Shown here one piece after another: positions 6,641 to 45,263 of a stretch of 64,000 nt of DNA. The position numbers were made by a program, and so were the translations under genes. Origin of the DNA: Methanotrichaceae archaeon (GTDB lineage Archaea; Halobacteriota; Methanosarcinia; Methanotrichales; Methanotrichaceae); NCBI GenBank assembly GCA_013178225.1, contig JABLXE010000012.1, forward strand, positions 1-64,000, in the 5' to 3' direction. Under the pieces are notes generated by a model. The model was not told the origin of the DNA, did no database searches, and saw only the letters and a list, made by a program, of their open reading frames with translations. Every line of letters begins with the position of its first letter. Positions within the stretch are counted from its first letter, which is position 1.

Positions 6641-7627
6641 TCAAACCGCCTCGACGTATATTATTTTGGGCACACCACTCTCGACAAAGACTTCTCTCTC
6701 ATAGGGCCAGAAGCCATCCCAGACGCGTATCAGATGAGACATGCCGCCTTTGACCTTGAAGGTGTAGCTTCCTCCTGCACTGGAGCCCACATAAGCGCCA
6801 TCTACGTAAACCTGATAGCTGCCTGGACCGGGATAATTGATGGTCACGGGCGTATCTCCGGAAGCCGCAGCGGCCACGGCCGGCGTCTGCTGAGTGCCCG
6901 CGGATCCGGATAGCGGAACCGCAGATGTCTGGGCCAGCTGACCTTGCGCAAATACATCCACAATTACCACATTGCTGGGCTGGTTGCCTATCACGAAGTA
7001 GAGCATGTGCCTTCCGATCTGTCCTGCTCTGTAGGTCATGGAGTTGTAGCCCTGATAGAACCGATAGGTTTTGTAATTGGTGCTGACGGTCTCGGTCTGA
7101 ACCGTCTCGTAGAAGCCTCCGGCTCCACCCGCGGGAGCATTGGCGACCAGCTGCATTGTGGTTCCGACCGGGCAGACCAAATACTGGGTCCAGTTTTCGG
7201 CTCCACGAATCCAGAGGTCGTTAGTCCTGGAGGGCATTATAGATAGATATTGAGAATAGGGCAAGCCCTGTCCTGCTCCGTAGTACACGCTGGCAGGCGT
7301 GCCTTGCGCCACATCGAACTTGACCGGCCCGCTGATTATTCCGGATGCAAAGGACGCTGCTGCGGTCGAATAATACTCGCTGTAGGGCGAGAACGTTGTG
7401 GCAGGAACTGCCTGCCTGATGAAACCTGCATCTGAAGAGCTGTACCATGGAAAATTGGGTACCGGTGCGTCAAGCCACCGCACCATGCCGGCGATTCCCG
7501 GGTCCATCATAGAGGAACGGTCGAAGCTGCTGACGTATCCCCCTGAGAGATAGTCCTGACCGCTTGTGATTCCGGTCAGCAGGCATGCTGCGAGCACCAA
7601 GCACGGAAAAATGTTGCCAGATCTCAT
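6641..7627 (-). CDS. secreted protein with C-terminal PEGA-like domain
   Basis: The 328-residue protein has a signal peptide (residues 1-23, ending LLTGITSG). The middle part is Ser/Tyr/Gly rich and contains NDLWIRGAENWTQYLVCPVG and SNVVIVDVFAQGQLAQ. After an Ala/Thr-rich linker, the last 70 residues (INYPGPGSYQVYVDGAYVGS, then GMSHLIRVWDGFWPYERE) look like a PEGA-type surface beta domain. No enzyme motif is visible. The gene is divergent from the TPR protein at 7834, and an AT-rich box at 7650-7670 can serve as its promoter. An extracytoplasmic, possibly wall-associated, location is inferred. Confidence 0.7.
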   Translation of the reverse strand: MRSGNIFPCLVLAACLLTGITSGQDYLSGGYVSSFDRSSMMDPGIAGMVRWLDAPVPNFPWYSSSDAGFIRQAVPATTFSPYSEYYSTAAASFASGIISGPVKFDVAQGTPASVYYGAGQGLPYSQYLSIMPSRTNDLWIRGAENWTQYLVCPVGTTMQLVANAPAGGAGGFYETVQTETVSTNYKTYRFYQGYNSMTYRAGQIGRHMLYFVIGNQPSNVVIVDVFAQGQLAQTSAVPLSGSAGTQQTPAVAAAASGDTPVTINYPGPGSYQVYVDGAYVGSSAGGSYTFKVKGGMSHLIRVWDGFWPYEREVFVESGVPKIIYVEAV

Positions 7628-18359: not shown

Positions 18360-19358
18360 TCAGGCGCTCATGCTCTGGTTAATTGCGCTCATACTCTGAT
18401 CGCTGAGGCTGTTATTGATTGTACTCTGATTAAAGGCACTCAAGTCGACGTCGGTTGAGTTTTGAGGCATCTCCTCTGCGGTCTGGTTTAACAGGCCAAG
18501 CCCCAGCGGCTGAGCTGCTGCAGCCTCTGGGGGAAGCACTATCTGAATGTTCTCGTTTATGTCGCGGTACAAGTAAACAGTATGGAGGAGCATCTTAACC
18601 TGCACGTCTTCGGCACCTTCTGCCGGAATTCCCAGGTCCTCAAGGTCGAGGCTCATATCCATAGTCATCTCCATCTTCCGGAGCAGGTTCTGGTCTGTGT
18701 CGATCCAGTAAATCAGGTCCATGGTGGCGTTCTGATAAAGCTCACTGAGGTTAATGGTCCCCAGCATGAGATCGCCCTGCTGCGAGGCCAGCTTTAAAAA
18801 GGCGTCCATGTCCTGAACTATGCCTATCTTGTAGCATCTTATGCCCTCAACGGTCTCAATTCCCAGAAGCGAGATCTGAGACTGATTGAGCATCTCGATC
18901 TGCTCTGCCGCTGAGTCCTGCGAAGACCAGCCATCCGGCAGGTTAAGAGTCAATTTCGTCCAGTTGCCGTCAATTTTCATATAAACGGTGTCGTTTATAA
19001 AGTACTCCTCAATCGCCATGGCAGTTACATTCTCATCATCGCCTACAGGAGTTACAACGCTGGCCAGGGCCATCTTCAGAGCCTTTTCAGTCTGGTTCAA
19101 GCTGCCTGAACCGAACGATTTGATCAGGATGATCTGAGGAGCTTCCGTCTGATTGGTCAGATTGGTGAGCTTCATGGTCTGATCCATGTCGATGGTGAAG
19201 CGATAGGAGGTCATGTTTGAGGAGTTCACAACCACATCCTTCAGGGCGGCGAGCACAGGGTCTGTTTCCAGGGAGGCATTGTCCTCCTCCGCCCAGGCAG
19301 CCGTCGAAAACATGATCAACGTGGATAAGGTTGCAGCCAGAATCAATTCTCGTCTCAT
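18360..19358 (-). CDS. secreted LolA/LppX-like protein of unknown function
   Basis: The 332-residue protein has a signal peptide (residues 1-23, ending STAAWA) and a mature part with many N-x-S/T sequons. The pattern of long beta strands (SYRFTIDMDQTMKL, MKIDGNWTKLTLNLPDGWS, YWIDTDQNLLRKMEMTMDMS) resembles the lipoprotein-carrier-like fold (LolA/LppX), seen in archaeal secreted proteins, but this is a fold-level guess. The last 35 residues are a low-complexity Asn/Gln/Ser tail (NQSTINNSLSDQSMSAINQS). No lipobox cysteine follows the signal peptide. A TATA-like box (about 19440-19452) is upstream. Ligand unknown. Confidence 0.6.
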   Translation of the reverse strand: MRRELILAATLSTLIMFSTAAWAEEDNASLETDPVLAALKDVVVNSSNMTSYRFTIDMDQTMKLTNLTNQTEAPQIILIKSFGSGSLNQTEKALKMALASVVTPVGDDENVTAMAIEEYFINDTVYMKIDGNWTKLTLNLPDGWSSQDSAAEQIEMLNQSQISLLGIETVEGIRCYKIGIVQDMDAFLKLASQQGDLMLGTINLSELYQNATMDLIYWIDTDQNLLRKMEMTMDMSLDLEDLGIPAEGAEDVQVKMLLHTVYLYRDINENIQIVLPPEAAAAQPLGLGLLNQTAEEMPQNSTDVDLSAFNQSTINNSLSDQSMSAINQSMSA

Positions 19359-37960: not shown

Positions 37961-39886
37961 TCAGACTCGAGGCTGCTGCTGGCTTATACAGTGAATGGCT
38001 CCGAGTCCATGGACCATCTCCCGGCAGTTGATGCTAACTGCGGTTCGGTCTGGAAATAGGTCCTGAACTATACTTAGGGCTGCCTGATCGTTGGCATGGC
38101 CGAATGCCGGGACCAGCACAACCTCGTTTCCGATGTAGAAGTTGGCGTAGCTTGCCGGAAGCCGTTTGTCGCCGCCCAAAGAGCCAGGCATGGGAAGCTT
38201 GATCACCTGCAGCGGTCTTCCATCCTGATCAGTCTCCCCGCACAGCAGCTCATAATTCTCCCTGAGGACGGAGTAGTTTTCATCTTCGGAACTGTCCTCA
38301 TAGGCGCAGAGAACGGTGCTCGGACCGACAAAGCGGGCTATGTCGTCCACGTGGCCGTCGGTGTCGTCGCCGATTATCCCTTGCTTTAGCCAAATCACCT
38401 TTTGGGCACCCAGATACTCTTTCAGGTACAGCGCCAGCTCATCCTTTCCCAGACCAGGATTGCGGTTGCTGTTGAGCAGGCACTGCTCGGTGGTGAGGAC
38501 AGTTCCCAGGCCGTTTACATCGATGGATCCTCCCTCCAGCACTAGACCTGGAGAAAAGACCCGCAGTTTGAGGTCTTCGTTCATGATGGATGGAACTGCC
38601 GCATCTCCCATCAGCTCGGGATACTTCTCTCCCCAGGCATTGAAGACCCAGTTGACCATCGCCAGATCCTTCTGCTCCCGATTGACCACAAATGTGGGGC
38701 CGTAGTCTCTGAACCACACGTCGGCGTAGCTTGCCAGGTGAAACTTCACCTTCGAGACCTCCACGCCTGCATCCTCCAGCATGGGCAGCACCCGGTCAAG
38801 CATCATCTCGTCCCTTAGCAGGAGGTTTACCCGCTCGCCCACATGAAGGGCTCTTATAATGGAGATATAGGCGCGTTCAACTGCCTCGATTTCCGGAAAG
38901 CTGTCCAGGTCATAGGGCCAGGAAAGCCATACCGCCTCATGGCTCTCCCATTCAGCAGGCATGTGAAAGCCGGCTTTAAGCGGCGTGTCCTCCGGGCAGA
39001 ACCGACCTTTAATCACTTCGACGGCTTCTTCTGCCGGCATTTCCACCAGCGGCCAGTAAAGTTCGGGACGCCGGTTCCTCATGAAGCCCCATCCCTCACG
39101 TACCTCTTGATTCAGGCCCAGGTCAAGTTCAGCCACCAAGGAAATCTCTTCCCTGACACCCGCCTTGGCGATGACGTTCCCAAAGGAATCGCAGGCAAAA
39201 GAGCTTCCCCAGAAGATCAGGTCGCCTTCCTCCCCCACGCGGTTAACGGCCACCACGGCGACTGAATTGGCAATGGCGTGAGCCCTCTGCACCGTCTCCC
39301 AGGCAAGGCGCCAGTCTCCCTCGGGCGGCACCTGGCCCTTTATCCAGCCGATGGCTGTCGGATAGAAAATTATGTCTGCTCCCTTCAGGGCCACGATCCT
39401 TGCCGCCTCGGGGAACCACTGGTCAAAGCAGATCAAAACCGCGAACCTGGCATATCTGGTGTCATAGACTCTGAATTCAACGCCTGCCTGAAAATAGCTC
39501 TTCTCAAAGAAATATGGATCGTTCGGGATGTGAACCTTTCTGTAAGTCTCAAGAAGTGTGCCGTCTGCATCTATTACCGCCGCTGAATTGTAGTAGCCCC
39601 CCTCATCCTCTTCAAACACCGGCACGATGACCGCAGCTTCATATTTGCGTGCCAGTTCAGAAAAAGCCCGGGTGGCCTCTCCAGGTATGGTTTCTGCCAG
39701 AGAAAATGCCTCTTTGTCTTCACGCTGCGGGAAGTACAGAGTGCGACAGAGCTCAGGAAGACAGACGATTCGAGCTCCTTTTGCCATTGCCTCTTCAGCC
39801 CTTTGTAGCGCCCTCTTGAGGTTCAATTCCGGATCTGCCGAAATAGACATCTGAACCAAGCCAACCTTTACCTTTCCCTGATGCAT
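37961..39886 (-). CDS. fused N-carbamoylputrescine amidase and agmatine deiminase
   Basis: The 641-residue protein joins two consecutive enzymes of polyamine synthesis. Residues 1-295 are a nitrilase-fold N-carbamoylputrescine amidase (AguB) with catalytic E45 (CLPELC), K117 (YRKVHIP) and C153 (LICFDQWFPE). Residues about 305-641 are agmatine deiminase (AguA): GFHMPAEWESHEAVWLSWPY, YADVWFRDYGPTFVV, VLEGGSIDVNGLGTVLTTEQ, DDTDGHVDDIARFV and C633 in GLGAIHCISQQQ. Together they turn agmatine into putrescine, with the order of domains reversed relative to the pathway. An arginine decarboxylase is not in the window. The ATG at 39886 is preferred over a GTG at 39898. No frameshift is needed to connect the domains. 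Confidence 0.93.
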   Translation of the reverse strand: MHQGKVKVGLVQMSISADPELNLKRALQRAEEAMAKGARIVCLPELCRTLYFPQREDKEAFSLAETIPGEATRAFSELARKYEAAVIVPVFEEDEGGYYNSAAVIDADGTLLETYRKVHIPNDPYFFEKSYFQAGVEFRVYDTRYARFAVLICFDQWFPEAARIVALKGADIIFYPTAIGWIKGQVPPEGDWRLAWETVQRAHAIANSVAVVAVNRVGEEGDLIFWGSSFACDSFGNVIAKAGVREEISLVAELDLGLNQEVREGWGFMRNRRPELYWPLVEMPAEEAVEVIKGRFCPEDTPLKAGFHMPAEWESHEAVWLSWPYDLDSFPEIEAVERAYISIIRALHVGERVNLLLRDEMMLDRVLPMLEDAGVEVSKVKFHLASYADVWFRDYGPTFVVNREQKDLAMVNWVFNAWGEKYPELMGDAAVPSIMNEDLKLRVFSPGLVLEGGSIDVNGLGTVLTTEQCLLNSNRNPGLGKDELALYLKEYLGAQKVIWLKQGIIGDDTDGHVDDIARFVGPSTVLCAYEDSSEDENYSVLRENYELLCGETDQDGRPLQVIKLPMPGSLGGDKRLPASYANFYIGNEVVLVPAFGHANDQAALSIVQDLFPDRTAVSINCREMVHGLGAIHCISQQQPRV

Positions 39887-39999
39887 GCGGTTCCCCACAA
39901 TTTTCAGGCGTTCTTGGCTTAACTAGGTGGCGGAACGCGAAATCCGACGAAAAAGGATGGCCGATGCCCAGCGTCATTCACAGGCATCTGTTTTCATTT

Positions 40000-41166
40000 C
40001 TATTGAACACCGGAGTAAGTCTCAGGCCTCAGTTCCGGCTGTCCGGTAACGGCGCAGGGGCAGCTTCCCTGCCCCGGACACGCCGTGCTGCTGGTGGGGC
40101 AGAAATGACTGGTACCGCAAATGACTCCTGTCGGACAGCCCTGCCTGCTTGGGCAATCGCTTCCACTCATACAAATGCGGCCTGTGGGGCAGGCAGATCT
40201 GCTGGGGCAGTCGGTTCCCGTAGTACATCTTGTACCGGTCGGGCAGTTGCTACTGGTCGCACCGCAACTGGAGCCGGTAGCACAGCTTGAGCCGGTCGGG
40301 CATAGGGTTCCGGTGGTACAACCAGTTCCTGTGGAACAGCCGGCTCCGGTGGTGCAGGTTGAACCGGTCGCACAGCTGCTATAGGTAGGACATCCGCTGC
40401 TGGTCATGCACCCGCTGCTTGACGGACAGCTAGTGCTGGTGGTGCAACCCGTTCCAGTCGGACAGCTGCCATTTGACGGACATGCGCTATTGGTTATGCA
40501 ACCGCTGTTGGATGGACAGTTGCTGCTGGTGGTGCAATCCGTGGCCGTGGCGCAACCACTGCCGGTCGGACATGCACTGCTGGTTATGCAGCCATCGCTG
40601 GTTGGGCAACTGGTGCTGGTGGTACAGCCTGTGGCCGTGGCGCAACCACTGCCGGTCGGACATGCACTGCTGGTTACACAGCCACCGCTGGTTGGGCAAC
40701 TGGTGCTGGTGGTACAGCCTGTGGCCGTGGCGCAACCACTGCCAGTCGGACATGCACTGCTGGTTACGCAGCCACTGCTGGTGGGGCAGCTGGTGCTGGT
40801 GGTACAGCCTGTGGCCGTGGCGCAGCTGGAACCTGTGGGACAATTCGATCCCGTGGGGCAGGTAGAAGTGGTTGCAGCGCATCCACTTCCGGTCATACAA
40901 TAGCTTCCAGTAACGCACCTGGATCCGGTGGGACATCCGCTAGCAGTTGAGCAATACGATCCGCTAGGGCAGGCCGAACCGGTTGTGCATCCTGAGCCGG
41001 TAGGGCAGTAAGAACCAGTAGGGCATCTCATGCCGGTTGGCGAGCTGGAAGTGGTCGGCATGACAAAGCCCGCACCTGCAGCTATGGCAGTGCTGACAAG
41101 GATTGAGGCCAATATTAGAATATATAGAATTATCATCAATCGAAACCATTTTCTCTCTCGAGCCAC
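40000..41166 (-). CDS. secreted cysteine-rich hexapeptide-repeat protein
   Basis: The 388-residue protein has an N-terminal hydrophobic signal segment (LMIILYILILASILVSTAIA) and then about 55 cysteines almost all exactly six residues apart (C-[PTAVI]-[TS]-[GSA]-[ST]-x). Three hexads have one extra residue. The block CATATGCTTSTSCPT recurs; four 30-residue units are encoded by 90-bp DNA repeats (40471-40830). The mature part is mostly Cys, Thr, Ser, Gly, Pro and Ala, with almost no charge until the C-terminus, which has RPETYSGVQ. The regular spacing suggests a solenoid with stacked disulfides, as in cysteine-ladder beta-helices, or a crosslinked wall protein. The GTG start at 41166 has GGGAGGAG six bases upstream. 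Family unknown to me. Confidence 0.8.
   Translation of the reverse strand: MARERKWFRLMIILYILILASILVSTAIAAGAGFVMPTTSSSPTGMRCPTGSYCPTGSGCTTGSACPSGSYCSTASGCPTGSRCVTGSYCMTGSGCAATTSTCPTGSNCPTGSSCATATGCTTSTSCPTSSGCVTSSACPTGSGCATATGCTTSTSCPTSGGCVTSSACPTGSGCATATGCTTSTSCPTSDGCITSSACPTGSGCATATDCTTSSNCPSNSGCITNSACPSNGSCPTGTGCTTSTSCPSSSGCMTSSGCPTYSSCATGSTCTTGAGCSTGTGCTTGTLCPTGSSCATGSSCGATSSNCPTGTRCTTGTDCPSRSACPTGRICMSGSDCPSRQGCPTGVICGTSHFCPTSSTACPGQGSCPCAVTGQPELRPETYSGVQ
40471..40830. repeat. four 90-bp tandem repeats inside the cysteine-rich gene
   Basis: Copies start at about 40471, 40561, 40651 and 40741; the three later ones differ at only a few bases. Each encodes 30 residues, five hexads. The high DNA identity suggests recent expansion. 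Confidence 0.8.
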
Positions 41167-41813
41167 GTTACACTCCTCCCATGACTGATTTATGATTTGA
41201 ACTATCTTTCTCGGATCACAAAGTCATTTTAGTTTGGGAGTCTGTTTTCCAACTGATTCTATATATATTAGCATCTTATAATATTATCAGTTTCTTGGTT
41301 ATCGGTTAAACAAAAAATGTTTTAACAACATACAATCCTACTAAAAACCATAGATAGACATTCGGTATAATAACAAGCATTAGCCTAATTTGGCTACCAG
41401 TAGCGATCGTGAAGGCCGTTTCGCGCTCAGGCGAAATGGCGGCGAACCCGCATAGAAAGCTTCAGGAGGCGAGGTGTCGCTGCATGAAACCAGTGCCAAA
41501 TTGAGCTGGTCCAAGCCTTAGTTGAATACAAATGCCCTTATCCCAATCTCAGCGGGCTGCGGCCGCTAAATCAAAAATAAAAAAAATATCTGCTGTTTAA
41601 GTATAATATTATTTATTAAAAATAGTAATAATTTTAATACTTTAGTTGTTAATGAAAACATCCAATAAAACTTCAAATATTAGACATCCCAGAACAGTCG
41701 ACAAAAAATTATTTCTATGGGTTATTTGATAATTAAAAACTGTTAATCATGCAAGTCCTTGCGAAATTAAAGGAGATTGGTCGGAGAGCCGCCCATCAAC
41801 GGGGATTGACGAT
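41167..41813. other. 650-base AT-rich intergenic region with a possible structured RNA
   Basis: This gap separates divergent genes. It holds AT-rich promoter-like stretches (about 41255-41290, 41575-41640), a TATA-like box (TATAATAA, 41366-41373) and, downstream of it, a locally GC-rich island of about 150 bp (41395-41570) with a strong hairpin at 41415-41440. No protein gene is convincing here. Confidence 0.55.
41395..41525 (+). ncRNA. candidate structured RNA
   Basis: A GC-rich island inside AT-rich DNA starts about 25 nt after a TATA-like box. GCCGTTTCGC (41415-41424) pairs with GCGAAATGGC (41431-41440) in a 10-bp stem (one G:U) with a six-base loop. The island contains only short reading frames, one of them about 31 codons from a GTG at 41410. 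I cannot assign an RNA family, and the 3' end is a guess. Confidence 0.3.
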
Positions 41814-43229
41814 ATGAACCCGGAAAAAGCTGAAAACAGCATTTCCATATGCCGAATGCTGCCCATAATATTGGCAGCGAGCATAACCATCCTGACGGTC
41901 ACGATAGCATCAGCAGGCCAGGACGAGACCGTAGTCAAATATAACGGCCTTTTTACCTCAAAGGGCTTTGACGATGATGGAGATGGGCGCTTCGATTGCA
42001 TCATTGTAAATGTGGGAGTAAGCGTGATTCAGGCCGGCGAATATAGCGTTTCGGGCCGACTCTTCGACTCGCAGGGCGACGAGATGAGGCAGGTTCTGCC
42101 GGAGAAAAGACACCTCTCCATCGGTGCGAAGATGACGCCCCTGAAGTTCTACGGCATGAACAGGACGGGCTCTTATTACTTGAGAAATCTGACGCTATGC
42201 GATGAAGGCGGAAAGGTGCTGGACCGCCTCGATCAAGCCTATGTAACGGACAGATATTTCAATATCGATCAAAGTCCGCAGTATGCGAACCTGACGGGTG
42301 AGTATCTCGATTGGGGACTCGATACCGACTACGACGGCAAGTACGAATTTCTGGCGGTGGACGCAAACGTCGAGGTGCTCTTTCCCGGCGAATATACCCT
42401 CACCGGCTATCTTTTAAGTCAGGATGAAAAAGAGATTGCCTGGGCTATTGACAGCAATTTCTTGCAGCCCGGCCTGAGGACCATGCACCTGGCCTTCGAT
42501 GGCCGGCCAATTGAAGAGAGCGGAATCGATGGTCCTTACACCCTGGGAAAGCTCTTCCTCACCGGCCAGAACCTGACGGTGAAAGATGTGAAAGAACGCG
42601 CCTATCGCACTGGGGACTACAGTTGTAGGGATTTCTGCTCGGCCGATAAGTCCGTCGGAGAGAAGGCAGTGCGCGGAAAAGGTTATGGAGAACTTCTACT
42701 GTCAGTCAATATTTGCACCACAGTTCCTGTCTCTTCCGGGACCTACAGCTATGACCTGATGGGCATCAATATCCCGCCTATATCCACTCCCTGGAAAGTG
42801 AACGGCTCCAGATATGGATACAGCTATGACATTCCAGGAATCTTCATGCCCGCCAAGCCCAACGACTTCGCCGTTCAGGCCAGCGGCGCAAAAGATCTCA
42901 ATGTGGGCCTCAAAAAGCTGCCCGTGCCGGGAAAAAACGAATACACCAGAATCTGGGTCACCTCCCGGGCCAAAGCAGACGAAAACGGGACGGCCACCGC
43001 CAAAAGCGACCTGCTCTCGCCCGGAAACTACCACGCCAAGATCTTTGGGGATGCGGGCGAGAACGTTTCTGCGGTTGAAATCCTGATGACGGTTGAGAAA
43101 AAGCTGATAGTAAACGGGGAGTTCGACCTCAGGATCAACACCAGCGGATTTCCTCCAGTGAAATACTCCATCCAGGCAGAGGCTCTTAACGGCACCTTTG
43201 AGCTGGAGGAGATCAGCATGCAGGTATGA
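41814..43229 (+). CDS. large secreted surface protein with calcium-loop-like motifs
   Basis: The 471-residue protein has a hydrophobic N-terminal segment (MLPIILAASITILTVTIASA) and a long beta-rich part with repeated modules: FDDDGDGRFDCIIVNVGVSV and LDTDYDGKYEFLAVDANVEV are two related strands, each with a D-x-D-x-D/DxDxDGxxE loop that could bind calcium. The second half (ICTTVPVSSGTYSYDLMGIN and onward) is not recognised. Several N-x-S/T sequons fit surface glycosylation. The start ATG at 41814 is followed by a charged N-region, and an ATG at 41856 is an alternative. A surface or wall role is inferred. Confidence 0.7.
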   Translation: MNPEKAENSISICRMLPIILAASITILTVTIASAGQDETVVKYNGLFTSKGFDDDGDGRFDCIIVNVGVSVIQAGEYSVSGRLFDSQGDEMRQVLPEKRHLSIGAKMTPLKFYGMNRTGSYYLRNLTLCDEGGKVLDRLDQAYVTDRYFNIDQSPQYANLTGEYLDWGLDTDYDGKYEFLAVDANVEVLFPGEYTLTGYLLSQDEKEIAWAIDSNFLQPGLRTMHLAFDGRPIEESGIDGPYTLGKLFLTGQNLTVKDVKERAYRTGDYSCRDFCSADKSVGEKAVRGKGYGELLLSVNICTTVPVSSGTYSYDLMGINIPPISTPWKVNGSRYGYSYDIPGIFMPAKPNDFAVQASGAKDLNVGLKKLPVPGKNEYTRIWVTSRAKADENGTATAKSDLLSPGNYHAKIFGDAGENVSAVEILMTVEKKLIVNGEFDLRINTSGFPPVKYSIQAEALNGTFELEEISMQV

Positions 43230-44709: not shown

Positions 44710-44849
44710 TATTTGTTGATACCGTTCCTGCAGCCCAGTCCGTATTTTGGCCGGACAGAACGCTCAAGGCGGCCTTGAAGCCGGCGCCTGATCTTATAGT
44801 TTTCCGTAAGAATCAGGCCAGCGCTCCGGAAAGTAATAAATTCTCGAAA

Positions 44850-45263
44850 ATGTATAGCTATTCATCGATCGATATGAGCGAGGACAGCGTCGTCGAGCTG
44901 GATGACAGCCAATGGGAAGAGGTGGTGGAGAAAGGAGAGACCCCTGTGGTGGTCATGTTCTACCACCCTTTGTGTCCTCACTGCATGGCTATGATGCCCC
45001 ATTTCGAGAGATATGCCGAGGAGTTTCGGGGAAAGATCACCTTTGCCCGAATCAACGTGGAGACTAATCCTTTTTCTGTCAACAGATACGGAATTATGGC
45101 TACTCCAACCTTCAAATTCTTCTGCGGAGGCCGTCCGGTCCAGGAGATCGTGGGGGAGATATATCCGGGCCTTCTGAAAAGGATCACTGAAGATGCATTG
45201 CAGTATGGACGGGAATGTGCATCCAGGTCCACGCCCATCGACTACAATATCGGCTATGCCTAA
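44850..45263 (+). CDS. thioredoxin-family protein with CPHC active site
   Basis: The 137-residue protein has a thioredoxin fold: VVELDDSQWEEVVEKGETPV, active site FYHPLCPHCMAMMPHFERYA, RINVETNPFSVNRYGIMATP and the cis-proline PTFKFFCGGR. The C-P-H-C site, without the usual tryptophan before it, resembles DsbA-type or archaeal variants. A third cysteine lies in FFCGGR. The C-terminal 20 residues continue past the fold. No signal peptide, so cytoplasmic. The ATG at 44850 is used; the ATG at 44874 also gives a complete fold. Redox partner unknown. Confidence 0.88.
   Translation: MYSYSSIDMSEDSVVELDDSQWEEVVEKGETPVVVMFYHPLCPHCMAMMPHFERYAEEFRGKITFARINVETNPFSVNRYGIMATPTFKFFCGGRPVQEIVGEIYPGLLKRITEDALQYGRECASRSTPIDYNIGYA

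Follow-up and report, generated by a model that had tools for sequence, protein, structure and literature searches.

The window analysed here, 64,000 nucleotides of a Methanotrichaceae genome (contig JABLXE010000012.1), encodes an exported protein that is almost throughout a ladder of cysteines spaced six residues apart. Its reading frame is under selection, it belongs to a small family that is still expanding, and gene pairs like the membrane-gene pair found at two loci of this family stand, in other genomes, beside a second, unrelated ladder of period four. With moderate confidence, we favour the explanation that these are exported structural proteins whose cysteine ladders crosslink the envelope or sheath by disulfides, and that they are assembled or anchored with the membrane pair.

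The claim of an earlier note on this DNA that the gene encodes about 55 cysteines in a six-residue period was borne out. Of the 54 spacings between the 55 cysteines of the window protein, 50 are of six residues, three of seven and one, the last, of two (Table 1). When the mature residues were shuffled 2000 times, cysteine pairs at distance six numbered 8 on average and 17 at most, compared to the 50 observed. The mature protein is 41% Thr plus Ser, 15% Gly and 8% Pro, with no Lys; Thr or Ser occupies position Cys+2 after 50 of the 55 cysteines, and position Cys+3 is taken by small residues. Inspection of the hydrophobic N-terminal segment, which is similar in the paralogs, agrees with the note that the protein is exported with a signal segment. 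Its reading of the 90-bp DNA repeats as a recent expansion also stands, given both the Tandem Repeats Finder result (3.9 copies, 90% matches) and the pattern of identity between hexamers.

Table 1. Features of the cysteine-ladder locus in the window.
Feature	Position	Strand	Basis
Cysteine-ladder gene, 388 aa, GTG start	40000..41166	minus	ORF and spacing analysis
Signal segment, approximately residues 1-33, end approximate	41068..41166	minus	Charged start, hydrophobic run RLMIILYILILASILVSTAIAAGA, paralogs start alike
Ladder, Cys 48 to Cys 371, consensus C-[PTA]-[TS]-[GS]-[ST]-x	40054..41025	minus	Spacing analysis
90-bp repeats, unit of five hexamers, about four copies	40477..40824	minus	Tandem Repeats Finder
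Ribosome-binding site GGGAGGAG, 6 nt upstream of GTG	41173..41180	minus	Sequence
Putative promoter, TATA-box-like stretch AATATATATA, about 95-105 nt upstream of start codon	41260..41269	minus	Sequence
Divergent neighbour, exported protein with DUF4785_3rd-type domain	41814..43229	plus	Domain and homolog search

Period-six cysteine runs can also appear when 18-bp tandem repeats are read in a meaningless frame, and public genomes contain many of this kind. In 50 units of the window array, the cysteine codon always carries TG at its first two bases, while its third base is C (27 units) or T (23 units) and never A or G. Thr and Pro are each encoded by all four of their codons, and 46 of the 50 18-mers are distinct at the DNA level. 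In the three arrays of the window gene, the third codon position has 0.64-0.76 bits more entropy than positions 1 and 2, and the excess is 0.49-0.86 in the relatives tested; C-x5 tandem-repeat DNA from public collections shows an excess of at most 0.56 and few distinct units among the matches listed. Given the codon signature, the distinctness of the units and the third-position entropy, we conclude that selection acts on the protein frame of the window gene. Two ORFs on the opposite strand, of 165 aa and 130 aa, were dismissed as by-products of the window repeat.

The C-x5 family is lineage-restricted and expanding, and each of its members consists of a signal segment followed by a hexamer ladder. 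Where the earlier note had looked to an absence of related genes as the result that would speak against it, we found the opposite: six paralogs in the same genome, on contigs C5, C7, C8, C22, C24 and C27, which bring the number of copies to seven, and one further copy in G001, a genome from another genus of the same family. All copies start with signal-like segments on inspection. By eye, several have in common a Cys-free entry unit, x-PTG-x-x, ahead of the first cysteine, and three end in similar C-terminal tails (ELRPETYSG, ELKPPTSAS and IFKPQTSS). The C24 copy carries an extra C-terminal domain of ∼260 residues, for which window gene 18360-19358 gave only a weak match (E=3e-4). The C5 copy, which adjoins a transposase-like gene, is a pseudogene with an in-frame TGA and a frameshift.

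Of the family's 50 genomes, these two alone carry C-x5 genes, the other weak matches being spurious. No further real C-x5 gene was added by the class (238 genomes) or by a phylum sample of 394 genomes, no relative was found in plasmid and viral collections, and no Pfam family matched any C-x5 member at a meaningful score. Several candidates were rejected. HMM matches outside the family (G083, G212 and G014) and a weak match in G031 turned out on inspection to be 18-bp-type tandem repeats, those matches to the C-x-T hexamer DNA pattern that were examined in public genomes and viral contigs were low-diversity or out-of-frame 18-bp tandem repeats, and matches to collagen-like adhesins (NCBIfam) were of low complexity and far under the cut-off.

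The copies have grown by different steps. Identity between hexamers peaks at a lag of five units in the window copy, three in the G001 copy, four in the C7 copy and two in the C27 copy, and at no lag in the longest array. Thus the elementary growth unit is C-x5 itself, and no fixed coil of 12 or 18 residues is visible in the hexamer-lag analysis.

In G001, the ladder gene and a homolog (47% identity) of the neighbouring window gene at 41814-43229 are oriented divergently, an arrangement identical to that in the window. On the other side of the G001 ladder gene lies a three-gene operon. One gene encodes an exported protein of 245 residues with a membrane segment at its C-terminus; the others are geneA, whose product of about 700 residues has membrane segments and ABC_transp_aux/GIFT/DUF4350-type domains, and geneB, whose product has about 690 residues. 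Counterparts of all three, with identities of 62, 60 and 54% to the G001 genes, are found directly upstream of the broken C5 copy; the window copy and the five other intact copies of its genome are not beside the membrane pair. Since G001 joins two contexts that are separate in the genome of the window, these data suggest that the window and C5 contexts were one ancestral locus, which was duplicated and then split. Close orthologs of geneB occur, among the 50 genomes, in exactly the two that carry C-x5 genes. As a rough control, we inspected 30 loci of homologs of gene 41814, with short flanks, and saw a ladder only at the window and G001. The membrane pair resembles DUF4350, ABC_transp_aux (GldG-type) and IFT52-GIFT proteins, whose Pfam models it matches, but in contrast to those systems no ATPase or permease gene was recognised adjoining it.

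A few more genomes in the family have distant geneB homologs (25-28%), and wherever the flank past geneA is readable it contains a gene for an exported, Cys-rich C-x3 protein. These ladders comprise a 419-aa protein in G036 with 34 spacings of exactly four, a 417-aa protein in G070 (34 spacings of four) and two in G072, one on contig C408 of 411 aa (32 spacings of four) and one on contig C425 of 745 aa, with 144 cysteines and 73 spacings of four; in G008 a short C-x3 ladder lies beside a broken geneB, the remnant of a pair. The geneA of G036 shows 44-71% identity to its counterparts at the remaining C-x3 loci that were tested, and 24% to geneA of C5 (E=1e-23). The repeats of these proteins are C-x-x-T. 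Variation is again greatest at the third codon position, and few units are exact duplicates; like the C-x5 arrays, those of C-x3 are under selection in frame. The C-x3 and C-x5 proteins have in common neither the repeat nor the domains around it. Overall, a ladder gene is present at all seven membrane-pair loci with a readable flank, although one of the ladders is broken (C5) and one of the pairs is a remnant (G008). A C-x3 gene in G073 has no geneA within the readable 2.3 kb upstream, and further C-x3 genes in G034 and G066 lie at contig ends. At a contig end of G066 we also noted a very Cys-rich protein (L398:8233-9666; 16.6% Cys, spacings of 4 and 5) that is cut by the end of the contig.

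Most C-x3 proteins carry a C-terminal domain of ∼150 residues that has no Pfam match and is encoded, frequently more than once, by most of the family's genomes, making it a candidate family-wide surface domain. Window gene 6641-7627 was considered as a carrier of this domain, for which BLASTP gives no support. In the genome of the window, L385:1048-2130 (C18) encodes an exported protein in which the domain is followed by four CEQNPxCxWxxGxCxCRG-type repeats.

We favour the crosslinking explanation because the ladders have in common export, regular cysteine spacing and some linkage to the membrane pair, and because disulfides are reported to link the hoops of sheaths in Methanothrix and Methanospirillum. 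Outside the cell, regularly placed thiols would pair as disulfides within and between chains, and a ladder paired in this way would be rigid and insoluble, crosslinking the envelope or acting as a spacer in it. The structure concerned would most likely be the proteinaceous sheath of Methanotrichaceae. The products of geneA and geneB, together with the ∼250-residue exported, membrane-anchored protein of the C-x5 version, probably serve in export, anchoring or assembly of the ladder. The selected trait need not be one fold, given that a period-4 ladder takes the equivalent place elsewhere; the two ladders are unrelated in sequence, and their common denominator is thiol density and spacing rather than fold. 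A suggestion in the earlier note, that the protein is a disulfide-crosslinked sheath or spacer part, comes close to this explanation, in which we infer both the location and the disulfides. Counting against this explanation, neither DsbB nor VKOR could be detected in the genome of the window, where only DsbD-type proteins were found. Furthermore, neither a C-x5 nor a C-x3 ladder was found with the queries used in 41 of the 50 family genomes, which are presumably sheathed, and the ladder protein is therefore not a universal part of the sheath.

The presence of two unrelated ladders by like membrane pairs suggests an undescribed route to a sulphur-crosslinked cell surface. More tentatively, cysteine ladders could form a class of their own among archaeal surface polymers, one selected for cysteine spacing and not for fold, with period-6 and period-4 versions occupying one slot in a conserved assembly module that includes two GIFT/DUF4350-type membrane proteins, and with a disulfide-zippered layer or cable as the product in strict anaerobes.

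Chlamydial OmcA and OmcB are exported, Cys-rich outer membrane proteins that crosslink the envelope by disulfides, but they are without the ladder period, and a Pfam search found no sequence relation to the ladder. Near the C8 ladder, L018:5362-10347 encodes a 1661-residue DUF11-repeat protein with a weak, below-cut-off match to Chlam_OMP6. The keratin-associated proteins of hair form a disulfide-crosslinked matrix from short Cys-rich repeats, and are a multigene family with repeat-number changes (see also PMC4423139); unlike the ladder proteins, they are eukaryotic and intracellular, with another repeat. In Methanothrix and Methanospirillum, sheath hoops are reported to be linked by disulfides (PMC6242892, PMC11576556), with the main sheath proteins carrying one or two cysteines each (PMC6242892, PMC10593813, PMC11576556). 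These proteins, MspA and SH, are like the ladders exported and found in the same or similar archaea. However, they are amyloid beta-arch proteins (PMC6242892, PMC10593813, PMC11576556), whereas the window protein, with its 55 cysteines, has few aromatic or aliphatic residues, and ladder proteins could be accessory sheath parts at most. Recombinant MspA alone does not form sheaths, and accessory assembly factors have been proposed (PMC6242892, PMC11576556); sheath building probably depends on more than the main sheath protein (PMC6242892). Phenol-soluble polypeptides of Methanospirillum (Southam and Beveridge 1992, as cited in PMC6242892) are proposed to be an accessory scaffold that makes its sheath rigid, a role resembling that which we propose for the ladders.

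The earlier note had likened the ladder to beetle antifreeze proteins. The antifreeze (thermal hysteresis) protein of Tenebrio molitor (1EZG/1L1I) is, like the window protein, exported and rich in Thr and Ser, with a cysteine every six residues. A beta-solenoid of this type would have 12 residues per coil, equal to two hexamers, with inward cysteines paired across each coil and flat Thr/Ser faces, giving a rigid rod that perhaps binds ice or surfaces. The spacing, the small residues at Cys+3 and the Thr or Ser at Cys+2 suit such a coil, and 1EZG is the sole PDB sequence match of the window protein. That match is insignificant (E=0.083 with the single sequence, 0.05 with a profile) and reflects equal cysteine spacing; it is no evidence of homology. 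The ladder protein is four to five times longer than the beetle protein and lacks its TCT ice-binding array, the motif occurring once among 55 cysteines and not more than once in each paralog. Nor is there a 12-residue super-period, since unit identity in the window protein peaks at lag 5 and not at even lags; growth by odd numbers of hexamers (5 and 3) ignores a 12-residue coil, and the period-4 ladder found elsewhere at the same kind of pair speaks against any single defined coil. As the specific answer, a beetle-antifreeze-like solenoid is therefore not supported, and we consider it unlikely. A disulfide-laced solenoid is nonetheless possible as the fold of the ladder, and as a fold it could coexist with crosslinking. 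Two AlphaFold models, with mean pLDDT of 36 and 42, have no bearing on the solenoid either way. The left-handed beta-helix hexapeptide of LpxA/LpxD was rejected because position i of its motif, [LIV]-[GAED]-x2-[STAV]-x, is here Cys and not aliphatic; LpxD-type matches (E 0.06) came from one paralog only and were far under the cut-off.

Three alternatives remain. In a metal-binding polymer, reduced thiols at the surface would bind Fe, Zn, Cu or other soft metals, either for sequestration or in metal clusters that aid electron uptake. The very high density of thiols, in an organism that is strictly anaerobic, the failure to detect DsbB or VKOR, and the additional CC, C-x-C and C-x2-C motifs of some paralogs are in keeping with this, but the window protein has a single C-x-C and is otherwise C-x5 or C-x6, unlike metallothioneins with their clustered C-x-C, CC and C-x2-C, and with few other metal ligands and no family match, metal binding appears improbable to us. 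An extracellular thiol/disulfide redox buffer or electron carrier, which would shield the envelope or pass electrons, could account for the thiol-redox neighbours at four loci (a CPHC thioredoxin in the window, a peroxiredoxin at C24, rhodaneses at C7 and DsbD fused to an AhpC-type domain at C5). These neighbours were counted without control loci and we claim no link from them, none were seen near the G001 copy and the ladder proteins themselves have no redox domain, making us sceptical of this role, which we hold to be highly improbable. It could also be argued that the arrays are selfish or decaying 18-bp tandem DNA, open by chance and functionless, given that chance C-x5 runs occur in tandem repeats elsewhere, that C-x5 genes are confined to two of 50 genomes and that one copy is a pseudogene beside a transposase-like gene. 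With the codon-position signature, the near-complete distinctness of the units, dispersed copies that have signal segments and a gene order kept across genera, we find this scarcely credible.

The crosslinking explanation bears on organisms of some consequence: Methanothrix-type methanogens are major methane producers and live in very resistant sheaths. Exported proteins with up to 144 cysteines, tied to a conserved membrane-gene pair, are candidate crosslinkers or spacers. They raise the question of how thiols are oxidised outside an anaerobe without a recognisable DsbB or VKOR. If the ladder tolerates a period of either 6 or 4 beside an unchanged neighbouring module, it would offer a clear example of selection acting on spacing rather than fold. 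The earlier note knew of no description in methanogens, and we found none in the open-access literature, which is weak evidence of absence given that most subscription papers fall outside it. Beyond the window, and so beyond the note's view, are the seven-copy family, its relative in another genus and the unrelated period-4 ladder at a like membrane pair.

Some neighbouring genes deserve mention in their own right. In the window, 3.6 kb from the ladder, 44775-45263 (plus strand) encodes a protein that has the thioredoxin fold (Pfam E 1e-20) and, like DsbA, a CPHC motif. At C5, L015:16636-18075 combines a DsbD-type membrane domain and an AhpC/redoxin-type domain in one ORF ∼7 kb from the broken ladder, and on the opposite side of that ladder is a gene that is MsrA-like by inspection. 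Finally, a 645-residue ORF in the window (37961-39898, minus strand) appears by inspection to be an N-carbamoylputrescine amidase fused to an agmatine deiminase, which would place two steps of polyamine synthesis within one protein.
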